Virus record (IMG/VR): IMGVR_UViG_3300043470_001769
Coordinates: 1-39,641 of that record
DNA from: a virus
Strand: one strand, 5' to 3'
Length of the DNA: 39,641 bases
How positions within the stretch are numbered: the first letter of the stretch is position 1; the number at the start of each line of letters is the position of its first letter. The notes under the pieces are model-generated. The model saw nothing but the letters and a program-made list of their open reading frames with translations. It was not told where the DNA came from and ran no database searches. The position numbers and the translations under genes are program-made. Below, piece by piece: positions 3,444 to 23,425 of this stretch.

Positions 3444-5693
3444 ATGAATAATCCAGAAATAGAACACATTGTTGAACAAGCAGTAAAGATTGCTCGAGAG
3501 AAAAAACATGAATATGTGTTGACCGAACACCTGTTGTTGGCTCTGATTCGTCATCCAACGTTTCGACGCACCTTGGACAAATACGGAGTAGAGATTACCA
3601 AGATGGATCAAGAAGTTGATGTTTATCTCAACGGACTCATGCACCTGGTGAAAGATCATGAAGATCTACAACCAAGAAAAACTCAAACCCTGGAACGACT
3701 GTTCAATCGGGCCAATGTGCAGGCCATGTTCACTGGACGTAGACAACTGTCTGTGGTAGACATATATCTTTCAATCATGGCTGAGACCAACAGCCATGCA
3801 CACTACTACTTGCTCAAATACGGTGTGAAGAAAACTGATTTTGCGGAATTCTGTCAGAAAAATTACTCCCAAAACGATGTGCGCATGAACGATGTGCAGG
3901 CCACAGAAATCCTCAATGAGTACTGTACCAACCTTACTGAGATGGCCAAGAATGATCAACTGGAACCACTAATTGGACGCCAAACAGAACTGCACGAAAT
4001 GATCACTGTGATGGCTCGACGATTCAAAGCCAACGTGCTCATGGTGGGTGATCCTGGTGTGGGCAAGACCTGCATTGTGGACGGTCTTGCACAGGAAATC
4101 ATTGCTGGACGTGTGCCCAAATTCATTCAAGATCACGAAGTGTGGGGACTGGAAATTGGCAGCTTGCTGGCAGGATCCAAGTATCGCGGGGAGTTTGAAG
4201 AAAAGTTCAAGGCCGTGATTGCTGCCTTGGAAACCAAAAAGAAATGCATCCTGTTCATAGACGAAGCGCACACCATGAAAGGTGCAGGATCCGGCTCAAA
4301 CAGCAGCTTGGATTTTGCCAACATGCTGAAACCCGCAATCACCAAAGGCAACTTGAAAGTGATTGCGTCGACCACCTGGGAAGAATACTACGAGTCATTT
4401 GAGAAAGATCGCGCACTCATGCGTAGATTCTACAGACTCAGCATTGACGAGCCTGATACTGATACCACAGAAAAAATTCTAATAGGATTGAGTCTTAGAC
4501 TGGAAAAATTCCACAATGTCGAAATTGACACCGAAGCCATTATGGCCTCTGTGGAACTGGCCAACCGCTACATTCATGACCGTAAGAATCCTGACAAAGC
4601 CATTGACTTGTTGGATGCGAGTTGTGCTCGTGAGCGTGTGAAAGATGAGGGCACTGTTGTGATCACAAAAGAAATGATTCAGGCACAAGTGAGTCGTGTG
4701 GCAGGTGTGCCTGTGGATCGCTTGCAGAATGAACGATCGGCAAAGATTGTGGATCTTGAAAGCAACATCAAGCAGAAATTGTATGGTCAAGATTCAGCAG
4801 TGGATGCAGTGCTGGAACGTGTGTACATCAACTTTGCCGGTATTGGCAACGCAAAACGTCCCATCTCAAGTTTCTTGTTCTTGGGCCCAACAGGCACAGG
4901 CAAAACTGAACTGGCCAAACTGTTGAGTGAACACCTGGAAATGAAACTGTTGCGATACGACATGAGTGAGTATCAAGAAAAGCACACAGTGAGTAGTTTG
5001 ATTGGTGCGCCCCCAGGATACGTGGGCTTTGAAGACGGCAACGTGGGCGGTGGTAAACTGATCTCCGACATCAGCAAGAATCCCTATGCCATCATATTGT
5101 TCGACGAGATTGAAAAAGCACATTCAGATGTGACCAACATCTTGTTGCAGATGCTGGATGAAGGACACATCACTTCAGCCAATGGCAAACGAGTGGATGT
5201 AAAAAACTGTATCATTATCATGACAAGTAACTTGGGCGCACAGGCCAATGACACCAACAACATTGGGTTTGGTAGCTTGGAGAAGTCAGGCGAAGAAGAT
5301 CGTGCAATGAAAGATTTCTTCCGCCCGGAACTGCGCAATCGTATTGATCGAATCTGCAAGTTCAACAAACTGGACACCTTGGCCATCAAGAAAATTGTGT
5401 TGAAGTTTGTGGACGAACTCAAGGCCAGTATGACACACAAAAACATTAAATTGTTGTTGAGTGAGCCGGTGATTGACCACTTGGCTGACAAGGGTTATGA
5501 CAGCAAAATGGGCGCACGTCCACTGAGTCGCAAGATTGATGAGCTGATCCGTGTGCCACTCAGCAAGCGGATGCTGTTTGATCGCTTGGAGAATTGCACA
5601 ATCACCGCTGTGATGCGGGACGATGCTGTGGAATTTGAAATTGAACAAGACGCTGTGCCTACAATAAATGCTGAAGGAATCATCATTGTATAA
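3444..5693 (+). CDS. clpA: ClpA-like double AAA+ unfoldase
   Basis: The 749-residue protein has an N-terminal Clp repeat domain (about 1-145, including VLTEHLLLALI). AAA module 1 has Walker A GDPGVGKT at 202-209 and Walker B ILFIDEAH. AAA module 2 has Walker A GPTGTGKT at 481-488 and Walker B IILFDEIEKAH, with a C-terminal small domain ending near residue 735. There is no long coiled-coil middle domain, so it is ClpA-type rather than ClpB-type. ClpA unfolds proteins and feeds them to ClpP; no phage ClpP is seen, so it would use host ClpP or act as a stand-alone remodeller. I did not verify an IGF/L-type ClpP-binding loop. Confidence 0.92.
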   Translation: MNNPEIEHIVEQAVKIAREKKHEYVLTEHLLLALIRHPTFRRTLDKYGVEITKMDQEVDVYLNGLMHLVKDHEDLQPRKTQTLERLFNRANVQAMFTGRRQLSVVDIYLSIMAETNSHAHYYLLKYGVKKTDFAEFCQKNYSQNDVRMNDVQATEILNEYCTNLTEMAKNDQLEPLIGRQTELHEMITVMARRFKANVLMVGDPGVGKTCIVDGLAQEIIAGRVPKFIQDHEVWGLEIGSLLAGSKYRGEFEEKFKAVIAALETKKKCILFIDEAHTMKGAGSGSNSSLDFANMLKPAITKGNLKVIASTTWEEYYESFEKDRALMRRFYRLSIDEPDTDTTEKILIGLSLRLEKFHNVEIDTEAIMASVELANRYIHDRKNPDKAIDLLDASCARERVKDEGTVVITKEMIQAQVSRVAGVPVDRLQNERSAKIVDLESNIKQKLYGQDSAVDAVLERVYINFAGIGNAKRPISSFLFLGPTGTGKTELAKLLSEHLEMKLLRYDMSEYQEKHTVSSLIGAPPGYVGFEDGNVGGGKLISDISKNPYAIILFDEIEKAHSDVTNILLQMLDEGHITSANGKRVDVKNCIIIMTSNLGAQANDTNNIGFGSLEKSGEEDRAMKDFFRPELRNRIDRICKFNKLDTLAIKKIVLKFVDELKASMTHKNIKLLLSEPVIDHLADKGYDSKMGARPLSRKIDELIRVPLSKRMLFDRLENCTITAVMRDDAVEFEIEQDAVPTINAEGIIIV

Positions 5694-7355: not shown

Positions 7356-8090
7356 ATGACAACTGTAGTAATCATGCCCGGCGGGTTTCATCCTTTTCAT
7401 GCAGGGCATGCAGCTTTGTATCAGTCAGCTCGGCGCACATTTCCTGACGCAGATGTATATGTGGCTGCTACCAATGACACATCAACAAGACCTTTTCCAT
7501 TTCAAATAAAAGAAAAACTGGCTCAATTGGCCGGAGTTGACCCAGGTCGATTCATGCAGGTCAAAAGCCCTTTTCAAGCCGCAGAAATCACAGCACCTTA
7601 CGATCCTGCCCGTGATCAATTGATATTTGTAAGATCAGAAAAAGACGCAAACAAACCACCACAGGCCGGTGGCGTCAAAAAGAACGGCGACCCGTCATAT
7701 CTGCAGCCGTTGTTGGGTGCAAAAAAACTAGAACCATTTGCAAAGCATGCTTACATGGCCTATTTGCCCACAGTGGAGTTTGGCCCTGGCATGACTTCAG
7801 CCACAGAAATACGTGCTGCTTGGCCCAAACTAAACGAAAAACGCCGGACTGCCTTGGTCATGAGTTTGTATCCAAAAACACAAACCAATCCTCAATTGGC
7901 CGCAACAGTGGTCAAAATGTTGAACACTGCCATTGGTACAGAAGTTGCAGAAAATCAAGGTTGGGCTGCTACCTATGAGTCAGACGGACTCACTGCTGGC
8001 ACCGGAGTAACAGGTGGCATGCATGCCTCATATCAAGATCGATACAATCAACCCACCACAGAAGACTATGTGGAAGAATACCGGTCGTAA
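7356..8090 (+). CDS. Cytidylyltransferase-like nucleotidyltransferase
   Basis: The N-terminus carries the nucleotidylyltransferase superfamily HxGH signature in GGFHPFHAGH (about residues 9-18). It also has a later ATEIRA motif (about 149-154), the counterpart of the ISSTxxR motif, so an intact active site is likely. These enzymes transfer NMP from an NTP to phosphosubstrates such as phosphocholine, NMN or phosphopantetheine; the substrate here cannot be told. The last 45 residues are Gly/Thr/Tyr-rich and follow EVAENQGW (about 199-206). This contains a VAE tripeptide like the putative cleavage junctions in 12605-17371, hinting that this enzyme may also be packaged in the head. It is preceded by a late-type promoter. 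Confidence 0.8.
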   Translation: MTTVVIMPGGFHPFHAGHAALYQSARRTFPDADVYVAATNDTSTRPFPFQIKEKLAQLAGVDPGRFMQVKSPFQAAEITAPYDPARDQLIFVRSEKDANKPPQAGGVKKNGDPSYLQPLLGAKKLEPFAKHAYMAYLPTVEFGPGMTSATEIRAAWPKLNEKRRTALVMSLYPKTQTNPQLAATVVKMLNTAIGTEVAENQGWAATYESDGLTAGTGVTGGMHASYQDRYNQPTTEDYVEEYRS

Positions 8091-9106: not shown

Positions 9107-12100
9107 ATGAACATTCATGAGCTGGCTACTTACAATCTTGATGATGCTGTAAAGTTTCATCAACGACTCAATCCTGTACTTTGGGCAAGAGACGAACATC
9201 TCTTGCCTGAAGTGCGCAACAAGTTGTTAAAAATAGCAGCAGACTTCCAAGAATTCCTGGGAGTAGAGGATCTCAAAGTAAAAGACATCACTGTGTCTGG
9301 ATCCAATGCTGCCTATTCTTACACCAAACAATCTGACATAGATCTACACCTGGTGGTTGAAATGCCTGACGATCCGGTGTATCAAGAGCTGTTTGCTGCC
9401 AAAAAATATCAATACAACACCGAACATGACATCACCATAGGTGGTGCCGACGTTGAACTGTATGTGCAGCCTGAAGATCAGCCACATCACAGTCAAGGCA
9501 TCTATTCGATCAAAAACTCAGACTGGGTCAAGGTACCACAGCGCAAACGCAGTCAGATAGATGACACCTGTGTGTTGGCCAAGGTAGATGATCTCACAAA
9601 CAGAATTCAATCTGCAGTGGCCAGTGAGAACAAAGAATCCATGGACACGCTGTGGAACAAGATCAAAATCATGCGTCAGTCTGGCCTGGAAAATCACGGC
9701 GAGTTTGGCTGTGAAAATGTTGCATTCAAACTGTTGCGCAACAATGGCAGCATTGGTGCATTGAAATCGGCCATCACAGCAGCACAAGACCGCGAACTCA
9801 GTTTGCCACCCAAGAAACGTGTGCGTTACGGATTTTCAGAAGATGTCACTTCTACACCTGACGGAGTCAGTGCCAGCACCAACATGTTCTTGAATGAAAC
9901 ACCCATTGACGGTGTTGTACAGGCCTTTATCAAAGATGCAGTGCAACAACTGAACATTGAACACATGCCCGAAGTGGTGTTGCACAATGATGCCAGTTGG
10001 AGCAAACAAAACAACAGCTTTGGTCAATACAATCCTGGCACACGAACTTTGCATGTGAGCCTGGCCAATCGACATCTACTAGACATATTGCGAACAGTGG
10101 CACATGAACTCACTCACTGTCGTCAAAACGAATTGAGTGAATTGCCAGATGATGCTGGAGAAACTGGCAGTCCTTGGGAAAACGAAGCCAATGCACAAGC
10201 AGGCATACTCATGCGTGACTTTGCAGATGCTAATCCTGAGTATTTTACAGAGTCATACACTCAAGCAAAAAGTTTGCAGTCATCCATGAAGACCTTTCGT
10301 GCTCTGGTACGTATCAAAGATCGATACGGTAGCCCGGCCATTGAAGCACAGGTAGTGGCCAGAAATCATGACATGGCCAGACAACTGTTGAGAGCTCAGT
10401 ACGGTCCTGACAGTGTGGTTAGCACAGTGACTGAGCTTAAAGAAAATGCTTCGGGCTATATTCCCAAGAACAAACGAGAAGCAGCCATGCCACAGTATGC
10501 CATGGCTCTTTCAGTGGATATCAAGCCAGGTCAAGTGGGCAAGGAAGCCAACAAACTGGGATTGAAAACTGGGCGCAATGGCGAACCAGGACTGTTGATG
10601 CCCGAGGCCCAAAACTTGTTGCGTGAGTTTGCTGAGTTCACTGAAGAACAAGACAACTTGTTTGAAATCACAATGAGTCCCTCTAGCCTGCGGAAACTCA
10701 GCGCACAAACTGGTGCCTTGGCTGGCATGGAATTTGAAATGATTGTGCCCAACATCGAAGGCAGCGACGATGGCGATCAAGAACCCGATTATGAATATGA
10801 CCAACGCTGTCGCAGCATTGAAGATGCTTTTGACTTCTTCTATGACGGTGATTGGAATGGTCGTAGAGATGTAGAACGCATGCGTGATAGAATGCAGAAT
10901 GATTATCAGGAATGGCTGGATGACAAACTGTATCGAGACTGGGAACGCAACGGCGAAGAATACCTAGAAGAATGGGTGCCCAACAACGTGGACGAATCAG
11001 AATGGAATCCCGAAGGCCTGGAAGGCGATGAACGCCAAGAAGCCTTGGAAGAATTCATTGCCAACTTGCATAGCGACCCCGGCGGCAATGATGCTTTTGA
11101 TGAGTACCGAGAAGAAAATTTTGAAAGTTATGACGAAAGCGACTGGCTGAGTGACGAAGATCTAGACCTCATGAGTGCCATTGAAAACAACTACAGCATG
11201 AGTTGGCCACATTGGACCAGTGTAGGCAGTGGCGAAGGCAGCATTGAAGAAGTTGCTGATAATTTTTCAGACGCTATTGACCGCCCAGTGCAGGCCAGCA
11301 GCAGTTATCACAGCGGGTCAGTTCAACGACCCAGCGTCAAGAATCCGCACTACATTGTGGAACCTGATTCTAGTTTGGATCCTGATAACAGTGATGACCG
11401 AGGTTTAGAGTTTGTGAGTCCTCCTTTGCCTATTGAAGAACTGCTGAGTGATTTGAACAAGGTCAAAGCCTGGGCTGATCGTACTGGCTGCTATACTAAT
11501 AATTCTACTGGCCTGCACATCAATGTAAGTGTGCCTGGCTGGACCGGTGGCACTGATCAATTGGACTATGTGAAACTGGCCTTGTTGCTGGGCGATGAGT
11601 TTGTGCTGGATTCATTTGGTCGTGCTGGCAACACCTACGCCAAGTCGGCTATGGGCAAAATACGTGACGCAGTGAGAAAAAGTCCTGATCGAGCACAAGA
11701 ACTCATGGACCGAATGAAGTCTGGTATGGATCAACTGGCCAGCAAGGTTGTACACAGTCGTAGTACAGACAAGTACACATCAATCAATGTGAAAGATGGC
11801 TACATTGAATTCCGTAGCCCAGGTGGCGATTGGTTGAATGACAACTTTGCGGAGATTGACAACACCCTGCGCAGATTTACTGTGGCCCTTAGTGCAGCCG
11901 TGGATCCCGAGGCGTATCGCCAAGAGTACTTGAAGAAACTGTACAAACTATTGGACGTATCCAGTGAAAAAGATCCCTTATCATACTTTGCAAAATTTGC
12001 TGCTGGCGAGTTGCCCAAGGCAGCACTAAAGAGTTTTGTGCGTCAAGCACAGTTGGAACGTGATGTCAAACGTGGCAAAGAACAACCAGCACCGGTGCCA

Positions 12101-12598
12101 TCTGCTCAAGAACCACAAGGTGTTGATACCCGTGTGAACTACGAACTCTACAGTAGAGCATCAGGTGCGGTGATTGACACATTCCCGGCTCGCAACGACG
12201 ATGAAGCAATAACTAGATTGAGTGACTACATAAACTTTGGTGCTGGACAAAGCAATCCTGACAATTTTGATGTTCGCCGTGCTGGTCGTGCTCCTATTGC
12301 AGGTTCTACACTAGACCTACAACGTCAGCGAGCAGCCTCTAGTGCAGCCGCTGCTCAAATTCCCACCATTGACATTGACGTTGAACCAGCGCCAGTACCA
12401 CAGCCAGCAGGCATGGGACAATGGAATGGACAATGGAAAGTGTTGGTTGGCGGCCAAGAAGTGTATCGCTTTGGTGGCGTTGGCAACAGCCAAGCAGATG
12501 CCAACAGAATAGCCGCAGCATGGTTACGAAGCAGTGGTCGGGGTGTATCAGGTGAAGGCTTTGAAGTATATCCTGTGATGGATGAAAGCCTACGTTAA
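9107..12598 (+). CDS. Giant fusion: nucleotidyltransferase, zinc metallopeptidase and amidoligase-like domains
   Basis: Of 1163 residues, about 1-230 form a Pol-beta-like nucleotidyltransferase (GSNAAYSYTKQSDIDLHL, acidic pair D77/D79). About 265-370 form a zincin peptidase with HELTH at 333-337 and a likely third ligand in WENEAN (E358 or E360). About 535-930 match the putative amidoligase (glutamine-synthetase-like ATP-grasp cousin) pattern: GMEFEM at 540-545, GLEFVSPPLP from 766, STGLHINVS at 800-808, EFRSPGGDW from 901. A very acidic insertion lies at about 550-720 and a small C-terminal domain at 1040-1163. No membrane segment. It precedes the small basic packaged-type protein and is under a late octamer, so I infer a virion-internal multi-enzyme protein, perhaps cleaved into parts. 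Confidence 0.85.
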   Translation: MNIHELATYNLDDAVKFHQRLNPVLWARDEHLLPEVRNKLLKIAADFQEFLGVEDLKVKDITVSGSNAAYSYTKQSDIDLHLVVEMPDDPVYQELFAAKKYQYNTEHDITIGGADVELYVQPEDQPHHSQGIYSIKNSDWVKVPQRKRSQIDDTCVLAKVDDLTNRIQSAVASENKESMDTLWNKIKIMRQSGLENHGEFGCENVAFKLLRNNGSIGALKSAITAAQDRELSLPPKKRVRYGFSEDVTSTPDGVSASTNMFLNETPIDGVVQAFIKDAVQQLNIEHMPEVVLHNDASWSKQNNSFGQYNPGTRTLHVSLANRHLLDILRTVAHELTHCRQNELSELPDDAGETGSPWENEANAQAGILMRDFADANPEYFTESYTQAKSLQSSMKTFRALVRIKDRYGSPAIEAQVVARNHDMARQLLRAQYGPDSVVSTVTELKENASGYIPKNKREAAMPQYAMALSVDIKPGQVGKEANKLGLKTGRNGEPGLLMPEAQNLLREFAEFTEEQDNLFEITMSPSSLRKLSAQTGALAGMEFEMIVPNIEGSDDGDQEPDYEYDQRCRSIEDAFDFFYDGDWNGRRDVERMRDRMQNDYQEWLDDKLYRDWERNGEEYLEEWVPNNVDESEWNPEGLEGDERQEALEEFIANLHSDPGGNDAFDEYREENFESYDESDWLSDEDLDLMSAIENNYSMSWPHWTSVGSGEGSIEEVADNFSDAIDRPVQASSSYHSGSVQRPSVKNPHYIVEPDSSLDPDNSDDRGLEFVSPPLPIEELLSDLNKVKAWADRTGCYTNNSTGLHINVSVPGWTGGTDQLDYVKLALLLGDEFVLDSFGRAGNTYAKSAMGKIRDAVRKSPDRAQELMDRMKSGMDQLASKVVHSRSTDKYTSINVKDGYIEFRSPGGDWLNDNFAEIDNTLRRFTVALSAAVDPEAYRQEYLKKLYKLLDVSSEKDPLSYFAKFAAGELPKAALKSFVRQAQLERDVKRGKEQPAPVPSAQEPQGVDTRVNYELYSRASGAVIDTFPARNDDEAITRLSDYINFGAGQSNPDNFDVRRAGRAPIAGSTLDLQRQRAASSAAAAQIPTIDIDVEPAPVPQPAGMGQWNGQWKVLVGGQEVYRFGGVGNSQADANRIAAAWLRSSGRGVSGEGFEVYPVMDESLR

Positions 12599-12604
12599 TA
12601 CCGG

Positions 12605-12814
12605 ATGCCACAGCCCAGTCAAGGTGTGGCGGAAAACTTTGCTGATGGTAAAAATCCTGGACGCAAAGGCCTCAGCAAGCAAGTGGGCGTCAACACCAAA
12701 GCCAGTGTGAGCAGTCTGCGCAAGACAGCAAAGAATTCATCAGGTGAAAAGCAACGCATGGCACACTGGCTGGCCAACATGAAAGCCGGTAGAGCAAAGG
12801 CCAAACGCAAATGA
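12605..12814 (+). CDS. Small very basic protein, probably head-internal and DNA-associated
   Basis: The 69 residues are dominated by Lys, Arg, Ser and Ala (ASVSSLRKTAKNSSGEKQRMAHWLANMKAGRAKAKRK). That is typical of a DNA-binding packaged protein. The N-terminal ten residues contain SQGVAEN, whose GVAE element is the same at nucleotide level as the junctions in the 13814 gene. Cleavage after VAE would release a mature protein beginning NFADGKNPGRKG. It lies between two cassette genes, 6 nt after one and overlapping the next by 4 nt. The family recurs in aquatic T4-like phages to my knowledge, but without a proven function. Confidence 0.75.
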   Translation: MPQPSQGVAENFADGKNPGRKGLSKQVGVNTKASVSSLRKTAKNSSGEKQRMAHWLANMKAGRAKAKRK

Positions 12815-13473
12815 GTTTTTTAGTAGCAAATTTACCACCCATACACTGTTTTGTTCGTAGAGAATTTTTATATGATTTTGAACAAGGTCACGACGAATAT
12901 GAGCCCTGTATATGGGTGTCAATCAAAAGTCTACGCAGTCAAGCATTTCGTATAGAAGCCTACTTGCCACGATATGGCGCACTGTATGACAAACTACCAC
13001 TGCATGCTTATGTCAGCAGAAATACTGATCTAGAGCCTGACAAATTTCTAGCCTTGGATACACTACAGATCTGGGACTGTTTCAGCTATGATATTGCTGT
13101 GATACAAAAAGCATTCCTACGCAATCTCAGCTGTGAGTTCTATGCCAAGGATCGTCAGCTACACAAGGGCAACTACTTGTTCACAGTGGACAATGCCGCA
13201 CCAGACATGAACATCATAGACACCACCTATTCAGAATGGCCAGAAGATCACAAGAGCTTTAACTTTATTGAACTGGACAACGGACAGTATGCCGCACAGC
13301 CCAACAATCGCTGCTTGTTTTTTGATGCTGCCAGCAATCCCAAAGAGATGCTGTTCCCAGATTTCAAAGTCTGCACCAAAAAATACATGGTGGAAACCAA
13401 TCCCAAATGGCGACTGGGTGATTCGGACACTGTGATGTATGATCTAGATAATGCAATAAATAAACAATCATGA
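12811..13473 (+). CDS. Conserved-type phage protein of unknown function
   Basis: This 220-residue protein is mixed alpha/beta with many aromatic residues (FVRREFLYDFEQGHDEYEPCIWVSIK at the start in overlapping parts, then LQIWDCFSYDIAVIQ). A C-terminal section, CLFFDAASNPKEMLFPDF, precedes a lysine-rich stretch. It has several cysteines but no zinc-finger spacing, no membrane span and no catalytic motif I recognise. Proteins of this appearance are frequent in T4-like cyanophage and related genomes. The ATG overlaps the stop of the preceding basic-protein gene by 4 nt (ATGA), so the two are translationally coupled. No capsid-targeting-like leader is seen, unlike its neighbours, so it may be a scaffold or assembly partner. 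Confidence 0.75.
   Translation: MSFLVANLPPIHCFVRREFLYDFEQGHDEYEPCIWVSIKSLRSQAFRIEAYLPRYGALYDKLPLHAYVSRNTDLEPDKFLALDTLQIWDCFSYDIAVIQKAFLRNLSCEFYAKDRQLHKGNYLFTVDNAAPDMNIIDTTYSEWPEDHKSFNFIELDNGQYAAQPNNRCLFFDAASNPKEMLFPDFKVCTKKYMVETNPKWRLGDSDTVMYDLDNAINKQS
13455..13462 (+). promoter_or_regulatory. T4-type late promoter octamer (AATAAATA)
   Basis: The octamer matches seven of eight positions of TATAAATA and ends 7 nt before the ATG at 13470. It lies within the 3' end of the upstream gene. No good ribosome-binding site precedes 13470. Confidence 0.5.
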
Positions 13474-13817
13474 CGTACAAAGAAATTCTTGAAGCCTGCT
13501 GGGACGGTTATCGCCGCAAACCCGGTACTACGGAGTATTCCAAAGGCAGCTGTGAAAAGATCAGCGAGCAGGATATAGAAGAAAATCTTCGAGACTGGTT
13601 CAAACAAAAATGGGTTCGTTTTGGTCCCGACGGAAAAATCCGTGGAGACTGTGCTAGAGGCAGTAGTAAAGAAGGCAAGCCCAAGTGTTTGCCTCAGGCC
13701 AAGGCACATGCACTGGGCCGAAAAGGTCGTGCGTCAGCAGCCGCAAGAAAACGCAGACAAGATCCCAACCCCAACCGTACAGGAAAGGCCATCAACGTGG
13801 CCACTAAAAAGAAATGA
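13470..13817 (+). CDS. DUF5872-like basic protein with capsid-targeting-like leader
   Basis: The 115-residue product carries the DUF5872-type segment KWVRFGPDGKIRGDCARGSS..GKPKCLPQAKA (about residues 48-80). A strongly basic tail follows (RKGRASAAARKRRQDPNPNR). It looks like a small nucleic-acid-binding protein with conserved cysteines. The first nine residues, MTYKEILEA, closely resemble T4 internal-protein leaders that end in (I/L)-x-E before an alanine, so cleavage after Glu8 is plausible. It overlaps both neighbours by 4 nt, forming one tightly coupled cassette. I infer a head-packaged protein; the DUF's molecular function is unknown to me. Confidence 0.8.
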   Translation: MTYKEILEACWDGYRRKPGTTEYSKGSCEKISEQDIEENLRDWFKQKWVRFGPDGKIRGDCARGSSKEGKPKCLPQAKAHALGRKGRASAAARKRRQDPNPNRTGKAINVATKKK

Positions 13818-16800
13818 TCATAGATGAACTATTTGAAGCCCCACAACTGTGCCCTGAATGCGGTGGCATCAGTTTCAGCGATTTAATCTTGGCTGAAAAA
13901 AAAGACGCCTGCTACCACAAGGTCAAAGCGTCAGCCAAGGTATGGCCGTCAGCGTATGCATCAGGACGCTTGGTACAGTGCCGCAAAAAAGGTGCTGCCA
14001 ACTATGGCAACAAGTCGGAAGGTGTGGCGGAAGGCCCTGAGTCTAAAAAATTCAAAGTAACATATGAATTACAAAACGGTGATGTCAAAGAAAAGATAAT
14101 GATTGGCAAAGATGCCAACGCTGTTGCAAAGTATTTTGAATTTAAGTATCGTCACAAACCAATCAGTGTTGTAGAGCAAGGTGTGGCGGAAGGCCAAGAA
14201 AATTTCAATGGTATAGATATCTCTATGGAGATACAAAAAGATGATGAGTATGTGGATGATGAAGATTATGATAATCAAGTAATATATGTCACTGCTAGTA
14301 GCAAAGGTAAAGAACTGGGTCATGTGTTGTTTGCCTTTGACGGTGAATATTTAATGCCACAAGATTTAGAAGTAGAAGAACGCTATCGAGGGCAAGGTAT
14401 CGCTCAAACCATGTACGACTATGTAAAGAGTAAGGGATATAAAATTCGCCGTAGCGGTCAACAAACTGATGCTGGTACTGGATTTTGGGACAAACACAAA
14501 CCAGGAAAAAATGTCTGGGAGCAAGGTGTGGCGGAAGGCTTGTGGGACCAACACACTTCTATCCCTGAGTTAGAGCAAGCCATCAAGAACTTAATCATGG
14601 GATACAAGGGCGGGGTGAACTTAACTGACAAAGGTCGTGCTCAACTGTTACTGAGTATTAACAAGGGCAAGCGTATCTTGGCCAAGAAAAAACAACAGCA
14701 AGACATGGCAGAAGGTCGTATGGTCAAAGGGCCAGGCGGTGTGCCACTGGACCGTCAGGGTCGTCCTATCGTTGCCAAAGCAAAACCACTAGGAATGCGC
14801 AAGTGGCTTGTGATTCATGACGGATCGCATGGCGAAGGTGGCAAAGACATTATTGAAGCACCCAACGCTGAAACAGCCTGGGAATTGGCCAACGAGTATG
14901 ATTTATACATCATCGATATCAAGCCCTACCGAGGACCAGCCGGACCCACGCTGGTGGACGAAAGTGTCTTGGATGAAGCAGTTGGCATGATGATCAAAGG
15001 TGCCGCGATCAGTGGACCCGATGATCAAGACATTGCAGATCGAATTGCTGCCCGAACAGGTGGGCGTGTGCAAGGTGGGTCTCGTGGCCACCATATCCTA
15101 ATAATCTATCCAACCACACAAGATCGTGCCATTGCTGCTAAAAAGATTAGAAAAATGTTCCCTGGCATTGAACTATACAAGTCCGGGGGCAACAGGAACG
15201 CAATCGACGAAGGCATGAAGGCCGACGAACTTTCACAATACTGTGAAGAACTTGTGGCTGAAAAAGGTTGGGATCAAGCATACAAACATGCCAGATTCAT
15301 GGCACAGGGCAGCACAGATCCTTCTTGGGGCAGTGTGCTAAAATATCTCAAATCCATGAAAGATGGTGTGGCGGAAGAAGAATCTGAAGCAGCATCACAG
15401 CGCAAGCAATACCCAAATTATTATCAACATAGAGACTCAGGTACAGTTTTTAGAACTCAAAATGCTGACGGTCAAAGAATGGATATAACTCCCGATGACG
15501 AAGAATGGGATGACTATTACAAACAACAGTTTAAAGATATGCCTACCCCCAATGATGGCGGTTTTTGGAATGATGACAATACAGCAGCCTACGTAGAAGG
15601 CTCAGCAGAACAAGGCGTGGCGGAAGTCAGCCTGGGCGACTATCGTAAAAAGGCACAAGTGAGTCAAGCCGGTGCCAAGATAAACCGATTCTTTGACCGT
15701 GACAATCCTGAAAAAGTTGCCCGAGCCGATCAGACCATTGCCAAAAGAGAACGAGGCCTGGCACGTGCAGATGCTAGAAGCCGACCCTACACCGCACCAC
15801 CTGTGGACAAAGAAAAACAGCGGCAGCAGCTGACAGACAAATATCCCAACATTGACCAACTGGTATCCGATGCTGAAAAGAATCGTGATCCATACTATGA
15901 CCGTGCCGAAGGCAATGCATACTACGCAGGTCGTGAGGCTGAACAAAACTATGTGAGACTCAAACAAATACAACGCATAATTCAAGGACTCAATGAAGAG
16001 ACCAGACAGGCCACAGTGAATACTCCAGCTGGCAATTTCACAGCAAACATCACAAAAGACAAAAGCACAAACACTGTGTCGGGTACGATGCCGGTGGGCG
16101 GAGCAACTTTGAGTGCCAAAAAAGACCTGACACCAGGCGGAGCTCAGTCAGTCACTGTAGACACCGACGTTGCCCCAAATTTGAATTTATCAGCCACACG
16201 AAAGTCTGCTGATTATAACAAAGGACAATTGGCCGGAACCAAGTCGGTGTCAGCCAAGTACACTGATACCACAGGTGCATTGGGCGAGCCTGGACAACAG
16301 CACACTGCAACTAGAACTGCGGGTGTTGGGTTTGGTGGTGCATCAGGCTCTAGAGTAGGAAAAAATTACGTGACTCAAATTGACAAAACTTTAGCTGATT
16401 ACATGAAAGAAGCCAAAGGTATTAATAGTATAAGAAATCCCAATGATCTACAACCATTGGAAGGCGGTGGTGGCATGGGTGGTGGCGGTGGCTACACAGG
16501 TGGTCCCTCACCATTTAAAGGTTGGTTTGGTGGTGCAAAACCTGGATCACGTGAAGCATCCGTTGCTCAAAACAATCCCAACACCATGACGGTGAGACAA
16601 GGTCCAAACCCTGACTATCGTCCCCAGACCACAGGTGATAAACCCAAAGTAAATGTCAAACCCGGCGAGACCATGGATCAGGCTGTACAACGAACAAAAA
16701 CTCAACAAGAATTTGGCAAATTCCTACAAGGGCAAAGTGGTCAAACATTTGGTGCTGGTGGTGGACGTGGTGGTCAAGGTGGGCCAACAGCCGCACAAGC

Positions 16801-17371
16801 AAATACCATGTCCAATGCGCCAGTCAGTGTGAAAAACAAACCATCTGCTATAAATTCCATGGCCAGAGACTTGACCAATCCACCCAAGTCAACCAACACT
16901 ACCACTACCACTACAAACAATTCGCCCAGACAAAACGACCGTGTTGATCCACTTGACATGCCGCGAGATCCATACATGCCGCGAGATCCATTGGATATGA
17001 TACGTCCGGGCTATGACGGTCAGCTGGGCTCAAACCCAGGACCAAACACAGCAGACAAGAAGTCGTCGTGGCTTGGCAAAACAGCCAAAGGATTGGGATA
17101 TGCAGCAGGTGCTTATGGTGCTGCTGACTTGGGTTCACGTGCCCTGGACTACTATGATCAAACAAAAGACCAAAGCCAAGACGAAGTCATTATACCAGAT
17201 ATCAAAGAAACCAAAAAACGTGAGCAGCCCGAAGTGGAGTACGATGATGACTACGATGCTATGGTTGCCAGAGTTAAACGACTAGCCGGACTGGGTCCTA
17301 TGAAGACTGTTTACGATCCCAAGAAGCGACAATATCGCAACATGCCCACAGCAGTGCAGCCTAAAAAATGA
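13814..17371 (+). CDS. Giant modular protein with repeated GVAEG junctions; candidate capsid-cargo polyprotein
   Basis: The leader MIIDELFEAP has an LFE ending like a T4 capsid-targeting sequence. Junction tripeptides end at about E73, E126, E241 (all GVAEG), E300 (MAEG), E521 (GVAEEE) and E604 (GVAEV). Pieces: 1-73 a basic Cys-containing domain (ACYHKVKASAKVWPSAYASG); 74-126 a small alpha/beta domain; 127-241 GNAT acetyltransferase-like (EVEERYRGQGIAQTMYDYV); 242-300 helical; 301-521 mixed, with further LDE and IDE sites near 390 and 465; 522-604 acidic, Tyr/Trp-rich; 605-1185 a long Gly/Asn/Thr-rich disordered arm ending in a basic VKRLAGLGPMKTVYDPKKR-type motif. Known: T4-like prohead proteases cut after (L/I)-x-E. 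Inferred: this is a polyprotein of injected cargo. Confidence 0.85.
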   Translation: MIIDELFEAPQLCPECGGISFSDLILAEKKDACYHKVKASAKVWPSAYASGRLVQCRKKGAANYGNKSEGVAEGPESKKFKVTYELQNGDVKEKIMIGKDANAVAKYFEFKYRHKPISVVEQGVAEGQENFNGIDISMEIQKDDEYVDDEDYDNQVIYVTASSKGKELGHVLFAFDGEYLMPQDLEVEERYRGQGIAQTMYDYVKSKGYKIRRSGQQTDAGTGFWDKHKPGKNVWEQGVAEGLWDQHTSIPELEQAIKNLIMGYKGGVNLTDKGRAQLLLSINKGKRILAKKKQQQDMAEGRMVKGPGGVPLDRQGRPIVAKAKPLGMRKWLVIHDGSHGEGGKDIIEAPNAETAWELANEYDLYIIDIKPYRGPAGPTLVDESVLDEAVGMMIKGAAISGPDDQDIADRIAARTGGRVQGGSRGHHILIIYPTTQDRAIAAKKIRKMFPGIELYKSGGNRNAIDEGMKADELSQYCEELVAEKGWDQAYKHARFMAQGSTDPSWGSVLKYLKSMKDGVAEEESEAASQRKQYPNYYQHRDSGTVFRTQNADGQRMDITPDDEEWDDYYKQQFKDMPTPNDGGFWNDDNTAAYVEGSAEQGVAEVSLGDYRKKAQVSQAGAKINRFFDRDNPEKVARADQTIAKRERGLARADARSRPYTAPPVDKEKQRQQLTDKYPNIDQLVSDAEKNRDPYYDRAEGNAYYAGREAEQNYVRLKQIQRIIQGLNEETRQATVNTPAGNFTANITKDKSTNTVSGTMPVGGATLSAKKDLTPGGAQSVTVDTDVAPNLNLSATRKSADYNKGQLAGTKSVSAKYTDTTGALGEPGQQHTATRTAGVGFGGASGSRVGKNYVTQIDKTLADYMKEAKGINSIRNPNDLQPLEGGGGMGGGGGYTGGPSPFKGWFGGAKPGSREASVAQNNPNTMTVRQGPNPDYRPQTTGDKPKVNVKPGETMDQAVQRTKTQQEFGKFLQGQSGQTFGAGGGRGGQGGPTAAQANTMSNAPVSVKNKPSAINSMARDLTNPPKSTNTTTTTTNNSPRQNDRVDPLDMPRDPYMPRDPLDMIRPGYDGQLGSNPGPNTADKKSSWLGKTAKGLGYAAGAYGAADLGSRALDYYDQTKDQSQDEVIIPDIKETKKREQPEVEYDDDYDAMVARVKRLAGLGPMKTVYDPKKRQYRNMPTAVQPKK
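16957..16991 (+). repeat. Tandem repeat of two 17-bp units
   Basis: CATGCCGCGAGATCCAT occurs at 16957-16973 and again at 16975-16991, an 18-nt period in frame. It encodes two MPRDP units in the disordered arm of the modular protein, a likely recent slippage duplication. Confidence 0.8.
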
Positions 17372-17877
17372 GAGCACAAGAGTTTGTCACCGAAGCCTTT
17401 AACCAGCCATACAAAATGAAGTGGGAAAAAAGTGACTACGGTGATGTTGATGCATTGGTCACACTGCCTGATGGCACCTATCTCACTATCATGTTTGAAC
17501 ATGTGACTCCTTATGAAGTCAACATTTCGTTCTGGAGAAACAACAGTCTTGACGTTACTGGCGAAGGTGACGCTCAACGAATATTTGCTACTGTGTTGGC
17601 TGCTATTCAAAAGTTTCTCACAATGGAGCAACCAGCAAACATATCATTTTCAGCCAGCAAAGAGATAGATATGGACGCAGATGACAGCGGTGCAAAATTT
17701 AACCCAGAAAGCCGGGCCAAGTTGTACAACCGCATGGTCAATCGCTATGCCGCTGCCTGGGGATACACCCCACACAGTTTTGATCATGGCGATGAAGTTA
17801 AATATGAGTTATCACGAATAAAACAAGATGTAGCAGAAGAACAACTGGACGAACTCAGTCACGAATACGAAACATGA
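17368..17877 (+). CDS. Unknown protein with capsid-targeting-like leader MRAQEFVTEA
   Basis: The 169-residue product starts MRAQEFVTEA, strikingly like the T4 internal-protein leader pattern (basic start, EF, then hydrophobic-x-Glu before Ala). A cut after residue 9 is therefore likely. The body is alpha/beta, with strands in the first 60 residues (DVDALVTLPDGTYLTIMF, YEVNISFWRN) and a helical second half including PESRAKLYNRMVNRYAAAWGY. A DVAEEQ near residues 153-158 is a diverged version of the junction element. No catalytic motif is recognised. It overlaps both neighbours by 4 nt in the cassette. I infer a head-internal protein possibly injected with DNA. Confidence 0.78.
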   Translation: MRAQEFVTEAFNQPYKMKWEKSDYGDVDALVTLPDGTYLTIMFEHVTPYEVNISFWRNNSLDVTGEGDAQRIFATVLAAIQKFLTMEQPANISFSASKEIDMDADDSGAKFNPESRAKLYNRMVNRYAAAWGYTPHSFDHGDEVKYELSRIKQDVAEEQLDELSHEYET

Positions 17878-18332
17878 GAGCACGTGAATTCATCAGAGAT
17901 GATTGGAAGGATGTAGCAGACATAGCATCAACTGCGGCTATGTTTGTTCCTGGATTGGCTCCAATTGCTAAAGCATACAACGTGGGAAAAAGTTTATATC
18001 AAGTTGGCAAGACGGCAGTAGATTATAAAAAAGCAAGCGATGAGTTAAATGCAATGGAACCCGAGTTTGCTGCACAACGAGAGCGACAGACTGCACAAAA
18101 CAGTAAATTTTATTCATTAGATGATGTTGATAGACCAGTAGTTCAGTCTATTCATGGTGATCCCAACATTGAAAAAATAGACGAACTTAACTTCCTAGGA
18201 AGTGAATGCACCAAAGACTGTTCAGGACACCGAGCTGGATATGCCTGGTCAAAACGCAAGGGTCTACAACAAGCCAATTCATGGTCACCCAGTTTCAACA
18301 AAGGCGCTGGCCTAGCGGTAGCAGGAAAATAA
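17874..18332 (+). CDS. Unknown small protein of the internal-protein cassette
   Basis: This 152-residue protein begins MRAREFIRDDW, matching the first six residues of the preceding gene's leader except one, but with Asp instead of Glu at the predicted cut position. It may be uncut or cut elsewhere. A weakly hydrophobic helix follows (STAAMFVPGLAPIAKAYNVGKSL, described in parts). The C-terminus has a Cys-containing motif: FLGSECTKDCSGHRAGYAWSKRKG. That motif, with CxxxC and SGHRAGY, reads like a conserved short domain seen in aquatic phage proteins, with unknown function. It shares an ATGA overlap with the preceding gene and ends the cassette before the sugar genes. Confidence 0.75.
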   Translation: MRAREFIRDDWKDVADIASTAAMFVPGLAPIAKAYNVGKSLYQVGKTAVDYKKASDELNAMEPEFAAQRERQTAQNSKFYSLDDVDRPVVQSIHGDPNIEKIDELNFLGSECTKDCSGHRAGYAWSKRKGLQQANSWSPSFNKGAGLAVAGK

Positions 18333-19717: not shown

Positions 19718-20520
19718 AATTAATGATAGCAGGTTGCAGTTTTTCAGCTGTCAGCAAGTCATTGCCTGGCACCGCCTGGAGTGAAGTGTTGGCCAAGCGA
19801 CTAGGCTGGGAGTTGATCAATCTAGCACGTCAGGGCTGTAGCAATGGTGGCATACGCATACAGATAGATGAGATACGTAGACAGCGTCCAGACTTTGCTG
19901 TGCTCACTCCCACATTCTGGGACCGAATGGAAATACCTGCCAACAGTGTACCCTACGATTGGAATCAAAAACCCAGTTCAGGAGAGAATCCTCCACTGGA
20001 ACAGCATTTGCAAAATCGTGCCCTGGGCAATGGCTACCGTAGAGAAGATGGCATACGCAATGTCAACTACGGCACAGAACCGTCGAACATGATTTGCGAA
20101 ACTATCTTTACCTTGGCTGAAAACTTTGATCATCCCTACAGACAGGGACGCATCACTAAACAAGCACAAACAGGTGTGCGCCATTGGATTGATTCAATCT
20201 ACGACAATGCTTGGAAAAAACAGTGTGACGAGTGGATCATGCGGGATGGCATCACAATGATGTATTTAGATGGTATCAAATTCATTGTGTGTCCCAACCT
20301 GTTGTGGCCATTTGATCCTGCAAATTCTTCACAGTGGCGTGAGGCATTTCCTAGCATTGTGCCTGATCATTACATCAACTTGGATCCTGCACGATCGCCG
20401 CAGGCCATATGCGGCAACAATCCGTTTTCAGGAGAAGATCCTGGTTATCATTCAAGTCCAGCAGGACAAGAAATAATCGCCGAACACTTTTATCAAACTT
20501 GGTTGGATCACTTCAAGTGA
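19714..20520 (+). CDS. SGNH/GDSL-type hydrolase-like protein
   Basis: The 268-residue protein shows the SGNH block order. GCSFS (residues 6-10) carries the candidate serine nucleophile, NLARQGCSNGGIRIQI (about 34-49) the oxyanion Gly/Asn block, FAVLTPTFWDR (about 62-72) the third block, and GYHSSPAGQEIIAEHF near the C-terminus the His block. Such proteins act as esterases or O-acetyl hydrolases or transferases on sugars. Paired with a PIG-L deacetylase, sugar O-acetyl editing is a reasonable inference. Its 3' end overlaps the 3' end of the converging gene by 13 nt. Confidence 0.75.
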   Translation: MKLMIAGCSFSAVSKSLPGTAWSEVLAKRLGWELINLARQGCSNGGIRIQIDEIRRQRPDFAVLTPTFWDRMEIPANSVPYDWNQKPSSGENPPLEQHLQNRALGNGYRREDGIRNVNYGTEPSNMICETIFTLAENFDHPYRQGRITKQAQTGVRHWIDSIYDNAWKKQCDEWIMRDGITMMYLDGIKFIVCPNLLWPFDPANSSQWREAFPSIVPDHYINLDPARSPQAICGNNPFSGEDPGYHSSPAGQEIIAEHFYQTWLDHFK

Positions 20521-21569
20521 TCTACGACAAACTGCTGTAGTTCTTGTGTTTTTTCTTGTTCAAATTCATACAGCCTATTGTGATTGTGATCCAATTTAGG
20601 TCGTAGTTTTTGCAACAGTGCAGGCAAGTCTTGACTGCATAGATACTGCATTTGTTCAAACGCCCGACTCCAACGAACTACATCATCCGGCTCGGCATCA
20701 TAACTTTCGTCTATGACATCGCTAAAGGTTTCAAATCCCCAGTCCCGGTATTGTTGCAAAAATCCTTGTATGGCAAACACCACAAACAATCTACGAGCTT
20801 GAAAACACTTGGCAGTTTTTTCAGCAGAAAGAAACACACGATCCTTTCCTAGTGTTTCACACACCACACTGAACCAAGTGCGATTGTATATTTCCCAGGG
20901 CACCAAACCGCTGACAGAATTGTCCATGTCTTTTTTAACTTCCCATGCAGAGTCCAAGTTTGGACTCACATAAGGATATTGTAATGCAGTATTATCAAAC
21001 AGCCTGGCCACACGTTCAGGAGTTGAATCGATCCAATGCCCCACAAACAAGTCTCTGTAGGTCACAATTCCCTGTTCCAGCAAGCCTAATTTTTGCATGC
21101 TCAACATTGCAAAATCTCTATGCTCACGACGAGCACCTAGCAGGCATTCAAATGCAAAAGGACGTTGTGCAGGGAAATCTTCTCTTGGTTGATTCCAACG
21201 TAGGAAGTTGAAACTCCAGGCTGGTCTGTAGATCACTCTTGGGTGGGGCGGTTCGTCCAGCCACACACCTGCTGTGTGCAACAGCCAGTTTTCTATGCCT
21301 GTGGTTTCAATCCATTCCACAAGTTCTTTTTTGCTGTGCCACTCAATGTCAGTGAACAACACAAGATCAAATTCATGCAGCGGCAACTTCATGAAGTCTG
21401 GGTTGTATTCGTGTTTGTTGGGCAGACTGTAGAACACTGGCAAGACTGCTATGCTATGCGGCTGTGCCAAGGCTGTGGCCAAGTCTACTATTTGATCATA
21501 GCCAAAGCCCCATTCTGTGGCTTGATAGCCTGGAGAGAATACTTTAAGAGAGGCGTGCAAGAGTTTCAC
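20508..21569 (-). CDS. Putative glycosyltransferase (fucosyltransferase-like C-terminal motif)
   Basis: The GTG start at 21569 gives 353 residues and overlaps the upstream minus-strand gene by 26 nt. The C-terminal half holds WFSVVCETLGKDRVFLSAEKTAKCF followed by GFLQQYRDWGFETFSDVIDESYD (described in parts). That is the E-T-x(n)-EK and GF-x-TF-x(n)-DESYD pattern of phage and GT10-like transferases that bind nucleotide sugars. The N-terminal half (LVLFTDIEWHSKKEL) would bind the acceptor. It is the last gene of a three-gene reverse operon with a radical SAM enzyme and another transferase. Product and acceptor are unknown. Confidence 0.7.
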   Translation of the reverse strand: MKLLHASLKVFSPGYQATEWGFGYDQIVDLATALAQPHSIAVLPVFYSLPNKHEYNPDFMKLPLHEFDLVLFTDIEWHSKKELVEWIETTGIENWLLHTAGVWLDEPPHPRVIYRPAWSFNFLRWNQPREDFPAQRPFAFECLLGARREHRDFAMLSMQKLGLLEQGIVTYRDLFVGHWIDSTPERVARLFDNTALQYPYVSPNLDSAWEVKKDMDNSVSGLVPWEIYNRTWFSVVCETLGKDRVFLSAEKTAKCFQARRLFVVFAIQGFLQQYRDWGFETFSDVIDESYDAEPDDVVRWSRAFEQMQYLCSQDLPALLQKLRPKLDHNHNRLYEFEQEKTQELQQFVVDHLK

Positions 21570-22428
21570 GTATCTTGTCCATGTAGTAGTTGAAGTTCAC
21601 AACTTCTTTCTTTTCCCAGTCCATTTGCAAACTGCGACTCAAGTCAGGCACAGCATCACACACAGCAGTGTGATAGTTGGGATCAAAGTCACCAATCTTT
21701 TCCATGTCGTCATAATGATATCTGCGTTGGAACTCCTGGGTAATGGGTCTTCGGCTCATGGTCCAATTGCCAATGAATTCATATTCTGAAAACCAGCGTA
21801 TGAGTTCACCATTGCCCCAGGGTGGCACAGTGGGTTCAGGCGGGCATGAGTCAATCATGGCATCCAGCCATTTCTTCTGATGTTTTTCTTCCAGGAACTT
21901 TACTAAATCGTTAAAGTCTTGTTTGAGTACAGGCACGTTTTCACTGATAAAGCAGTGTGGCGTGAGTCGGTCAAAGCCCAGTCCATTCTTGATACTTTCA
22001 TAATAACCCCAACTGTGGCGTTCATTCTCCAGCACTTGGAAATTCAACACGCCGTCCTTGATAGGTTTATAGGGTCGGATCAGCAAACAATCACAGTCGT
22101 GCATGATCATCAAGTCATAGTTGAGATAATCAAGAAACGCAAACTTGATGGCCTGCTGACGCAGCCAGTATGTTCTGTAGTCACCGTCAAACACCCAATT
22201 GTTGACTTCAGGATAGATTCTGTAGATCTCTGAATCAGGAGCATAGTCTAACTTGGCGGTATCAATGCCGTACTTTTCAAACACAGGCCACAGTTCTTCC
22301 TGCGGCACAGGGCTGGCAATACAAGTGCGGTCTATGCCAATGAGATTGTTGGCAAATTCAGGTTGCAGGCTCATGATGGCATGCGGCACACGATATCGTG
22401 CTAGGTATAAAATTCTTGCTGAGGTCAT
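21544..22428 (-). CDS. GT-A-like glycosyltransferase (DUF6492-like)
   Basis: I chose ATG at 22428 (MTSARILYLARYR) because AAGGAAAAT stands directly before it and it then follows the radical SAM stop by 7 nt. A longer version starting at 22521 would overlap that gene by 86 nt. The 294 residues contain WLRQQAIKFAFLDYLNYDLMIMHDCDCLL, where the conserved Gln-Gln-Lys helix precedes a DCDC acidic site (about residues 108-111), and SEYEFIGNW further on. This is the same architecture as the 18366 product but with the metal site intact. It belongs to the reverse-strand sugar operon. Confidence 0.72.
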   Translation of the reverse strand: MTSARILYLARYRVPHAIMSLQPEFANNLIGIDRTCIASPVPQEELWPVFEKYGIDTAKLDYAPDSEIYRIYPEVNNWVFDGDYRTYWLRQQAIKFAFLDYLNYDLMIMHDCDCLLIRPYKPIKDGVLNFQVLENERHSWGYYESIKNGLGFDRLTPHCFISENVPVLKQDFNDLVKFLEEKHQKKWLDAMIDSCPPEPTVPPWGNGELIRWFSEYEFIGNWTMSRRPITQEFQRRYHYDDMEKIGDFDPNYHTAVCDAVPDLSRSLQMDWEKKEVVNFNYYMDKIRETLARLS

Positions 22429-22435
22429 ATTTTCC

Positions 22436-23425
22436 TTAGGTGATTGAGCAACTGTTGACACATTGATACAGTCTGCCATCTGCAATACTGCTTTGAGCCC
22501 AGGTTTGTTCCACACGTTCAAACCAGTTTAGACAATGCGCCAAATCATATTTAAGTGCGTTGTTTTCCTCGACCAATTCTTTTGTTTGACTGTTGCCAGC
22601 GTGAGTCATGGTTTTGGGGTAGAATCCCAGGTAACAACAGGGATATACTGAACCATCTGCGGCTATGTATATTTCTTGTTTGATCTTGTGCTGACAACGT
22701 AATTTTAACTCTGGCGTATCCTTGTGACTTTGCACAGTGCGCGGATCAAACCATGTGATGTGACTTTGTAATAAATCTTTGATGTGCGGCACATGATTGC
22801 TGGAGTCTGTGCCAATCCTATGGCTGTATTCTCCTGACCTAGTGAACACTGGTCCAGAGTCTCGGCCATCGTAGATGTTTTCAAATTCCACAAATCCCAG
22901 ATCTTGGGCCAGTTGTCGGCATTCGGCTTCTTGATGTCGGTTGTGATCAAACGGTACAAAACGCCACTTGGCCCGTCCGCCCGCAGCGATAAAAGCCTGT
23001 GCATTGGCTATGACTTTGTTCCAGTCTGTGTCCTGTCTATACAGAGCATGAGTATCTGCCAGACCGTCCAGCGCAAACCCCACAGTGACTCGGGGCAACG
23101 CCAGGCGCCGCCACCAATCTTGGTTGCGCAAACTGCCGTTGGTGTTGATGTTTACTGTGATATCGTGTTCCGCAAGATATTCAACTATTTCCACAGCATC
23201 TCGAGCACTTGCAAAGTCTCCCAGGTTGCCGTTGAAGTTGGCATGTGTTAGCTGTGATATCACAGGTGCCAAAATGTGCCGAAACTGTGCGAGATTCAGT
23301 TCCACATCAGGATAACCCGAATTGTAATCCAAGCCGCGATAGTTGCGCATACACATGGGACAACGGGCATTGCACCGGGTAGTGAGTTCCACATGCACCT
23401 GGCGTATTTGGTCTAACTTTAGCAT
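22436..23425 (-). CDS. Radical SAM/SPASM enzyme
   Basis: [18 protein letters not shown] (about residues 10-27) contains the canonical CxxxCxxC that binds a 4Fe-4S cluster and S-adenosylmethionine. A TIM-barrel-like core follows, including [11 protein letters not shown] and INTNGSLR. The C-terminal SPASM-like region has cysteines in [28 protein letters not shown] and YQCVNSC, fit for auxiliary clusters. At 329 residues it is the usual length. SPASM enzymes modify peptides or sugars by radical chemistry; next to two glycosyltransferases it may make an unusual sugar or modify a protein. A perfect TATAAATA sits 4 nt before its ATG. It is not QueE, which has a different cysteine spacing. Confidence 0.88.

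Follow-up and report, generated by a model that had tools for sequence, protein, structure and literature searches.

A predicted head-cargo polyprotein with exchangeable modules in a giant T4-like lake virus

Can a single phage gene supply the head with many separate proteins? The question is raised by an open reading frame (ORF) in a 39.6-kb viral contig (IMG/VR record IMGVR_UViG_3300043470_001769; 39,641 nucleotides, the whole of which is called the window here), whose source is taken, from its sequence, to be a giant T4-like bacterial virus from a lake. The ORF (13814-17371, plus strand) starts with ATG, is uninterrupted and encodes 1185 amino acids (aa), in which an earlier note had seen six (V/M)AE junctions and had read them as sites of a prohead protease. 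All six were found where it had placed them, after residues 73, 126, 241, 300, 521 and 604 (GVAEG three times, DMAEG, GVAEE and GVAEV); two more [LV]AE sites are LAE28 (residues 26-28) and an LVAE whose last residue is 483. Compared with composition shuffles, (V/M)AE occurred 7 times versus 0.47 (maximum 4, n=5000) and GVAE 5 times versus 0.03 (maximum 2); chance occurrence of the motifs was rejected because the shuffle counts were far below those observed. The explanation considered likely is that the ORF belongs to a T4-like jumbo myophage and encodes a cargo polyprotein, which would be targeted to the head and cut in the prohead. Its architecture is as follows (a slash marks the seam or site):

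13814-17371, plus strand: modular head-cargo polyprotein ORF (predicted), 1185 aa
13814-13837, plus strand: predicted capsid-targeting sequence MIIDELFE, site LFE8/A; an N-terminal L-x-E kept in syntenic relatives
13838-14032, plus strand: module 1, Cys / KVWPSAYASG domain, phrog_727/38880, with cyanophage homologues
ends at 13897, plus strand: likely inner seam LAE28/KKDACY of module 1; 10 DNA alignment starts cluster at 13897
14024-14032, plus strand: seam VAE73/G, at which DNA similarity to relatives breaks off
14033-14191, plus strand: module 2, a beta-beta-alpha-beta unit predicted by AlphaFold, ends QGVAE126; no relatives found
14192-14536, plus strand: module 3, predicted GNAT acetyltransferase (Pfam, fold comparison, dN/dS 0.04), ends NVWE236-QGVAE241
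14537-14713, plus strand: module 4, helical as predicted by AlphaFold, ends MAE300
14714-15376, plus strand: module 5, composite, inner seam IDE466/GMK, ends GVAE521
15377-15625, plus strand: module 6, acidic (net -12), ends QGVAE604
15626-17368, plus strand: module 7, long Gly/Asn-rich C-terminal part with conserved tail RNMPTAVQPKK
15997, plus strand: inner seam LNE728/E of module 7, a DNA breakpoint

The characters that the earlier note had assigned to the segments largely held. An AlphaFold (AF2) model of residues 74-300 (24-row alignment) resolved into three units, namely beta-beta-alpha-beta (residues 74-126, its "small alpha/beta domain"), GNAT, and helical (residues 242-300, also as described). 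VAE126 is placed in a loop, and VAE241 falls in a stretch with a predicted local distance difference test score (pLDDT) below 50; neither of the two junctions tested by this prediction is inside a domain, and the model is thus compatible with the earlier reading. The "GNAT-like" segment matches Pfam PF00583 (E value 0.004, below the family cut-off), in agreement with Foldseek, where the top PDB matches of the 74-300 model were nearly all GNATs (best E value 7e-4, with low TM-scores because the query comprises three units). The acidic segment (522-604) has its net charge of -12, whereas the "basic Cys domain" has the cysteines (4 Cys) but is about neutral overall (net +1); the model of this module reached a mean pLDDT of 61. 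The composite module 5 contains at least three sub-modules (about 300-385, 327-376 and 467-521) that occur separately elsewhere, behind VAE or LDE. The ratio of nonsynonymous to synonymous substitution rates (dN/dS) of the GNAT module has a median of 0.04 across contexts, which indicates strong purifying selection. This module was not found in isolate phages, and relatives of segments 2 and 4 were not found among viral contigs, the matches obtained covering only the start of segment 5. Pfam recognised little in the chains: in the 1185-aa protein (P0001) and 18 related chains, it returned GNATs, NT5C, DUF5872 and a few other weak matches, and most modules have no Pfam name.

The junction pattern CARGGNGTGGCGGAAGG was present in at least 120 viral contigs, in chains of up to about 1570 aa. 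Segmentation of 182 proteins gave 618 segments in 83 recurrent families plus 368 singletons (451 clusters), and recurrent segments mostly had different neighbors at each occurrence, which backs the earlier description of unrelated small domains. At the syntenic locus of relatives, the first module is kept, as is, in most, the tail ...NMPTAVQPKK; total length spans 399-1185 aa, and the middle is different even in the close relative G004 (458 aa). For 11 of the 12 relatives examined, DNA similarity ends with the Glu codon of VAE73 (14032-14035). Among 80 relatives, 45% of the right ends of DNA alignments fell within -3 to +4 nucleotides of an [LIVM]xE codon, versus 4.6% for random positions and only 2.7% for control sites [LIVM]x[DKQN]; the first seam supplies most of this excess (16% without it). 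DNA breakpoints were also seen inside modules 1 and 7 (LAE28 and LNE728) and, in the next gene, at the codons for FVTE and VAE. The earlier note had proposed to look in related phages for modules gained or lost precisely at VAE, and breaks in DNA similarity together with swapped middles were indeed observed at (V/M)AE. As the sole signal, however, (V/M)AE did not stand: seams are [LIV]xE in general (LAE28, IDE466, LNE728), and therefore the number of pieces is probably above seven. In 18.3% of pairs, both partners had [LIV]xE at the module start, versus 1.5% at random (10.8% versus 0.8% when x=A was left out), and [LIV]xD/K showed no excess; many of the BLAST pairs are related, so that these percentages are descriptive rather than independent tests, and the shared-seam counts may include local similarity at the seam itself, which is bounded by the D/K controls.

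T4 gp21 cuts after L/I-x-E, and a 10-residue capsid-targeting sequence suffices for the packaging of internal proteins (PMC9026906). The 1185-aa protein begins with this signature (about 10 N-terminal residues ending in L/I-x-E), MIIDELFE/A, which suggests that it is targeted to the head. In contigs fetched by the junction pattern, [LI]xE occupied a targeting-like N-terminal position in 49 of 84 junction ORFs (58%), compared with 151 of 873 other ORFs (17%). The GNAT module, found in 28 contigs with varied flanks, also occurs N-terminally, directly behind a targeting sequence. When the solo GNAT gene L263 (MRASEFIIE/DAFKGIDI) is compared with the internal form (QGVAE/GQENFNGIDI), the targeting Glu occupies the place of the VAE Glu; L276, which ends at the contig edge, likewise has GNAT behind a targeting sequence (MRAKEFIIE/DAFNG). 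Where an N-terminal module is shared with an internal one, [LIV]xE is at both edges in 47 of 177 proteins, and the internal side of the same set has it in 60, versus 11% in controls. Judged from these alignments, the Glu of the targeting sequence and that of the seam are interchangeable. IDE466/GMK of the window aligns with VAE/GMK and LDE/GMK in other contigs, and at the first seam, P3 is L, I, V or M in 35 of 36 sequences with Glu at P1, P2 being variable. Because P3 and P1 are kept and P2 is free, the seam has the look of a sequence recognised by a protease, and not solely of a repeat in the DNA.

A matching protease is found in relatives. The DNA polymerase of the window shares 97% identity with its counterpart in G004 (146 kb) and 86% with the one in G008 (364 kb); a gp21-type protease (PF03420) is encoded by 10 of 20 relative contigs and gp23 (PF07068) by 11, with both in G008, whose gp21 homologue has 212 aa and lies at C1:262533-263171. 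For these reasons, the window is assigned to a T4-like jumbo myophage, of whose genome it would be a fragment, and the combination of gp21 and gp23 that goes with T4-type internal head proteins is present in its close relatives. The gp23 of the clade has LxE (LAE, LKE, LLE, LSE; for example HLAE/N, YLKE/N and NLLE/N) directly before the conserved capsid start, a position which we take to be that of the T4 gp23 maturation site, and LxE specificity is therefore expected to hold. Thus, the idea of one gene that addresses several proteins to the head gains comparative support from the targeting signature and from gp21 and gp23 of relatives, but the "at least six" pieces first proposed are probably more than seven.

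Module 1 connects the protein to cyanophages: it was found in 363 cyanophage-type records, within multi-module proteins encoded between gp16 and gp17. The KVWPSAYASG module is homologous over its whole length to the phrog_727 cyanophage family, sharing being limited to module 1. The cyanophage chains have [LIV]xE, not GVAE, at several matching edges (IEIEE/GKKDACY, YELDE/KCWKGY), and some records label the module 1 protein "structural protein". ORF137 of S-CREM2, also located between gp16 and gp17, has two modules in common with these multi-module proteins and one module family in common with the family of the 1185-aa protein. Virions were found to contain it, from 4 unique peptides that cover 4.1% of the protein (PMC10665884); this is a weak link to the virion and the only experimental one found here.

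The linker itself is conserved as DNA. GGYGTGGCGGAAG is near-identical across all five GVAE copies of the ORF, and a sixth copy of this type (12617-12637) lies inside a 69-aa ORF. In loci fetched by protein similarity, the linker Ala codon was GCG in 68 of 98 cases (69%), versus 8% in the background, with Val GTG and Gly GGT likewise enriched. The 21-mer linker was absent from the prokaryote genome collection, and the linker peptide was not found in the published literature searched. The linker probably is a recombination seam; it may serve as a homology seam in exchange, or it may have spread recently. A slight preference is given to a cassette system, in which the constant linker would be both recombination seam and prohead-protease site, such that an inserted module would at once be in frame, packaged, and released.

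The alternative that survives best, considered unlikely, is an uncut multidomain virion protein of the polyvalent type, whose domains work as one chain and in which GVAEG is a recombinogenic DNA repeat. Fixation of the silent sites of the linker (GCG, GTG and GGT) and the sharp DNA breakpoints would fit, and polyvalent proteins are injected multidomain chains (PMC5512222). A DNA repeat only, however, does not explain why seams without linker DNA keep [LIV]xE (LDE, IDE, VDE, LNE; the 10.8% versus 0.8% given above), why variation is seen at P2 but not at P3 and P1, or why targeting Glu and seam Glu are interchangeable. Still less probable is a core or scaffold-like protein that is cut up to clear the head, like T4 gp22 and gp67, with pieces functionless after release. 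Both T4 proteins do finish as small fragments (PMC9026906), and SPN3US propeptides are cut many times (PMC10052503), but such a role is hard to reconcile with a dN/dS of 0.04 for the GNAT module in unrelated contexts, with its predicted GNAT fold, and with wholesale module swapping, which is unlike a conserved scaffold. Strongly disfavored are a tail or baseplate component and a chance-rich ORF of low complexity, either with VAE by coincidence; the lack of Pfam names for most modules and the long Gly/Asn-rich C-terminus would fit, but the motif excess, the occurrence in at least 120 contigs, the boundaries at motifs, and the targeting-like N-termini would not.

Several observations nevertheless weigh against a head-targeted polyprotein that is cut in the prohead. 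The fixed silent linker positions imply a role at the DNA level, which would not need cleavage. Inside segments, [LIV]xE is not depleted (1.34x expectation versus 1.21x in other proteins); therefore, the motif alone cannot specify cutting, and accessibility must play a part. At P3, V and M extend the L/I of T4. No virion peptides or cleaved N-termini are known from this clade, and the virion detection of S-CREM2 ORF137 covers 4.1% of a protein with other modules and without GVAE. Family searches recognised no protease or capsid gene in the window itself. TATAAATA (T4 late promoter) is absent upstream of the cluster; only two copies occur in the window, neither near it, and a T4 late promoter at the cluster was rejected.

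Under the preferred explanation of a cargo polyprotein, MIIDELFE would be the capsid-targeting sequence that brings the chain into the prohead core. There, we infer, a gp21-type prohead protease would cut after exposed [LIV]xE in interdomain loops (VAE, MAE, LAE, IDE, LNE) and release at least seven, probably about ten, small proteins, the GNAT acetyltransferase among them, which would stay with the DNA and probably be ejected into the host. The codons of the cut sites would double as recombination seams, where phages acquire, lose, and exchange modules, and the near-constant linker DNA (GGTGTGGCGGAAG) would assist this exchange.

The neighboring ORFs carry similar features:

12605-12814, plus strand: 69-aa ORF with a QGVAE/NFADGKNPGRKG module; its tail closes a 1389-aa fused protein in the relative L144
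13470-13817, plus strand: MTYKEILE/ACWDGYR..., targeting-like start, phrog_727 module
17368-17877, plus strand: MRAQEFVTE/AF...QDVAE/EQLDE, targeting-like start, with breaks in DNA similarity at its codons for FVTE and VAE
17874-18332, plus strand: MRAREFIRD/D, targeting-like start with Asp replacing Glu

In T4, Asp at position 10 permits targeting yet blocks processing (PMC9026906). The 69-aa QGVAEN ORF follows a 1163-aa ORF (together 9107-12814) with an amidoligase region (PF12224) and a nucleotidyltransferase-like one (PF01909, below cut-off); since L144 has a single counterpart of 1389 aa that ends in this C-terminal module, a stop seems to have divided the copy in the window. A small module, NLRKWFKEKWVRFGPDGKIRGDCARG...KCLPQ..KAHSLGKKGRASAAARKRREDPNPERRGKAKNVATKKK, which is related to the stand-alone ORF at 13470-13817, recurs in L047, L074, L189, and other loci, with weak DUF5872 matches in L042 and L270. 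Elsewhere in the window are an ATP-dependent protease (3444-5693, 749 aa, phrog_4871 family), a cytidylyltransferase-like protein (7356-8090; phrog_395, weak), and a block of minus-strand ORFs in an otherwise plus-strand region (20508-23425), one with a radical-SAM-like CNARCPMC motif. Cytidylyltransferases have been reported from cyanophage virions (PMC3037559, PMC10665884). No tRNA or Rfam RNA was found in the window.

If the cargo polyprotein is real, one gene would provide many injected proteins per virion across a class of uncultured T4-like jumbo phages, which suggests how several cargos fit one T4-type head, and module limits could be read straight from sequence. The 451 clusters (83 recurrent) would be a catalogue of proteins that probably act in early host takeover or counter-defence, hardly any of them from known families, and the seams would show the route by which such proteins are exchanged; with the cassette system, these phages would have a rapidly exchangeable pool of injected proteins.

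Among known systems, polyvalent proteins (Iyer et al, 2017; PMC5512222) resemble the present one in that 2-15 unrelated domains are joined in a virion-delivered chain, and several domains are likewise joined here. The proposal for them is either a peptidase domain of their own or none at all, whereas the sites here fit the prohead protease of the phage; no peptidase domain was found in chains of the 1185-aa family, whose modules are mostly small and unnamed, and Pfam detected no polyvalent-class domain (ART, MPTase, ParB, methylase-helicase, BECR) in the 1185-aa protein and 18 related chains. The ejection proteins of phiKZ and SPN3US, which are cut by gp175/gp245, also belong to giant phages with head proteins cut after x-x-Glu, but the known cuts remove mainly N-terminal propeptides, and a cargo polyprotein is not reported (PMC10052503). 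The internal head proteins of T4 (IPI, IPII, IPIII, Alt) share the short N-terminal targeting sequence ending in aliphatic-x-Glu, a phage with gp21 and gp23, and small cargo proteins that are diverse between phages. They differ in that T4 has one cargo per gene, from which propeptides are removed, whereas at least seven modules are joined in one gene here and the repeated internal sites are exchange seams with constant linker DNA. The earlier note had foreseen such a variation on the T4 system, correctly as to many modules per gene, and the arrangement is not confined to this gene. Cyanomyovirus proteins of the phrog_727 / T4-GC_110 type are likewise chains of several modules, with homologues of those seen here, and a number of corresponding module edges carry [LIV]xE; they lack the GVAE linker, have fewer modules, and showed no targeting-like start in those read. 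As judged from sequence comparison, the architecture is thus common to a large family of environmental phages and, minus GVAE, to cyanomyoviruses.

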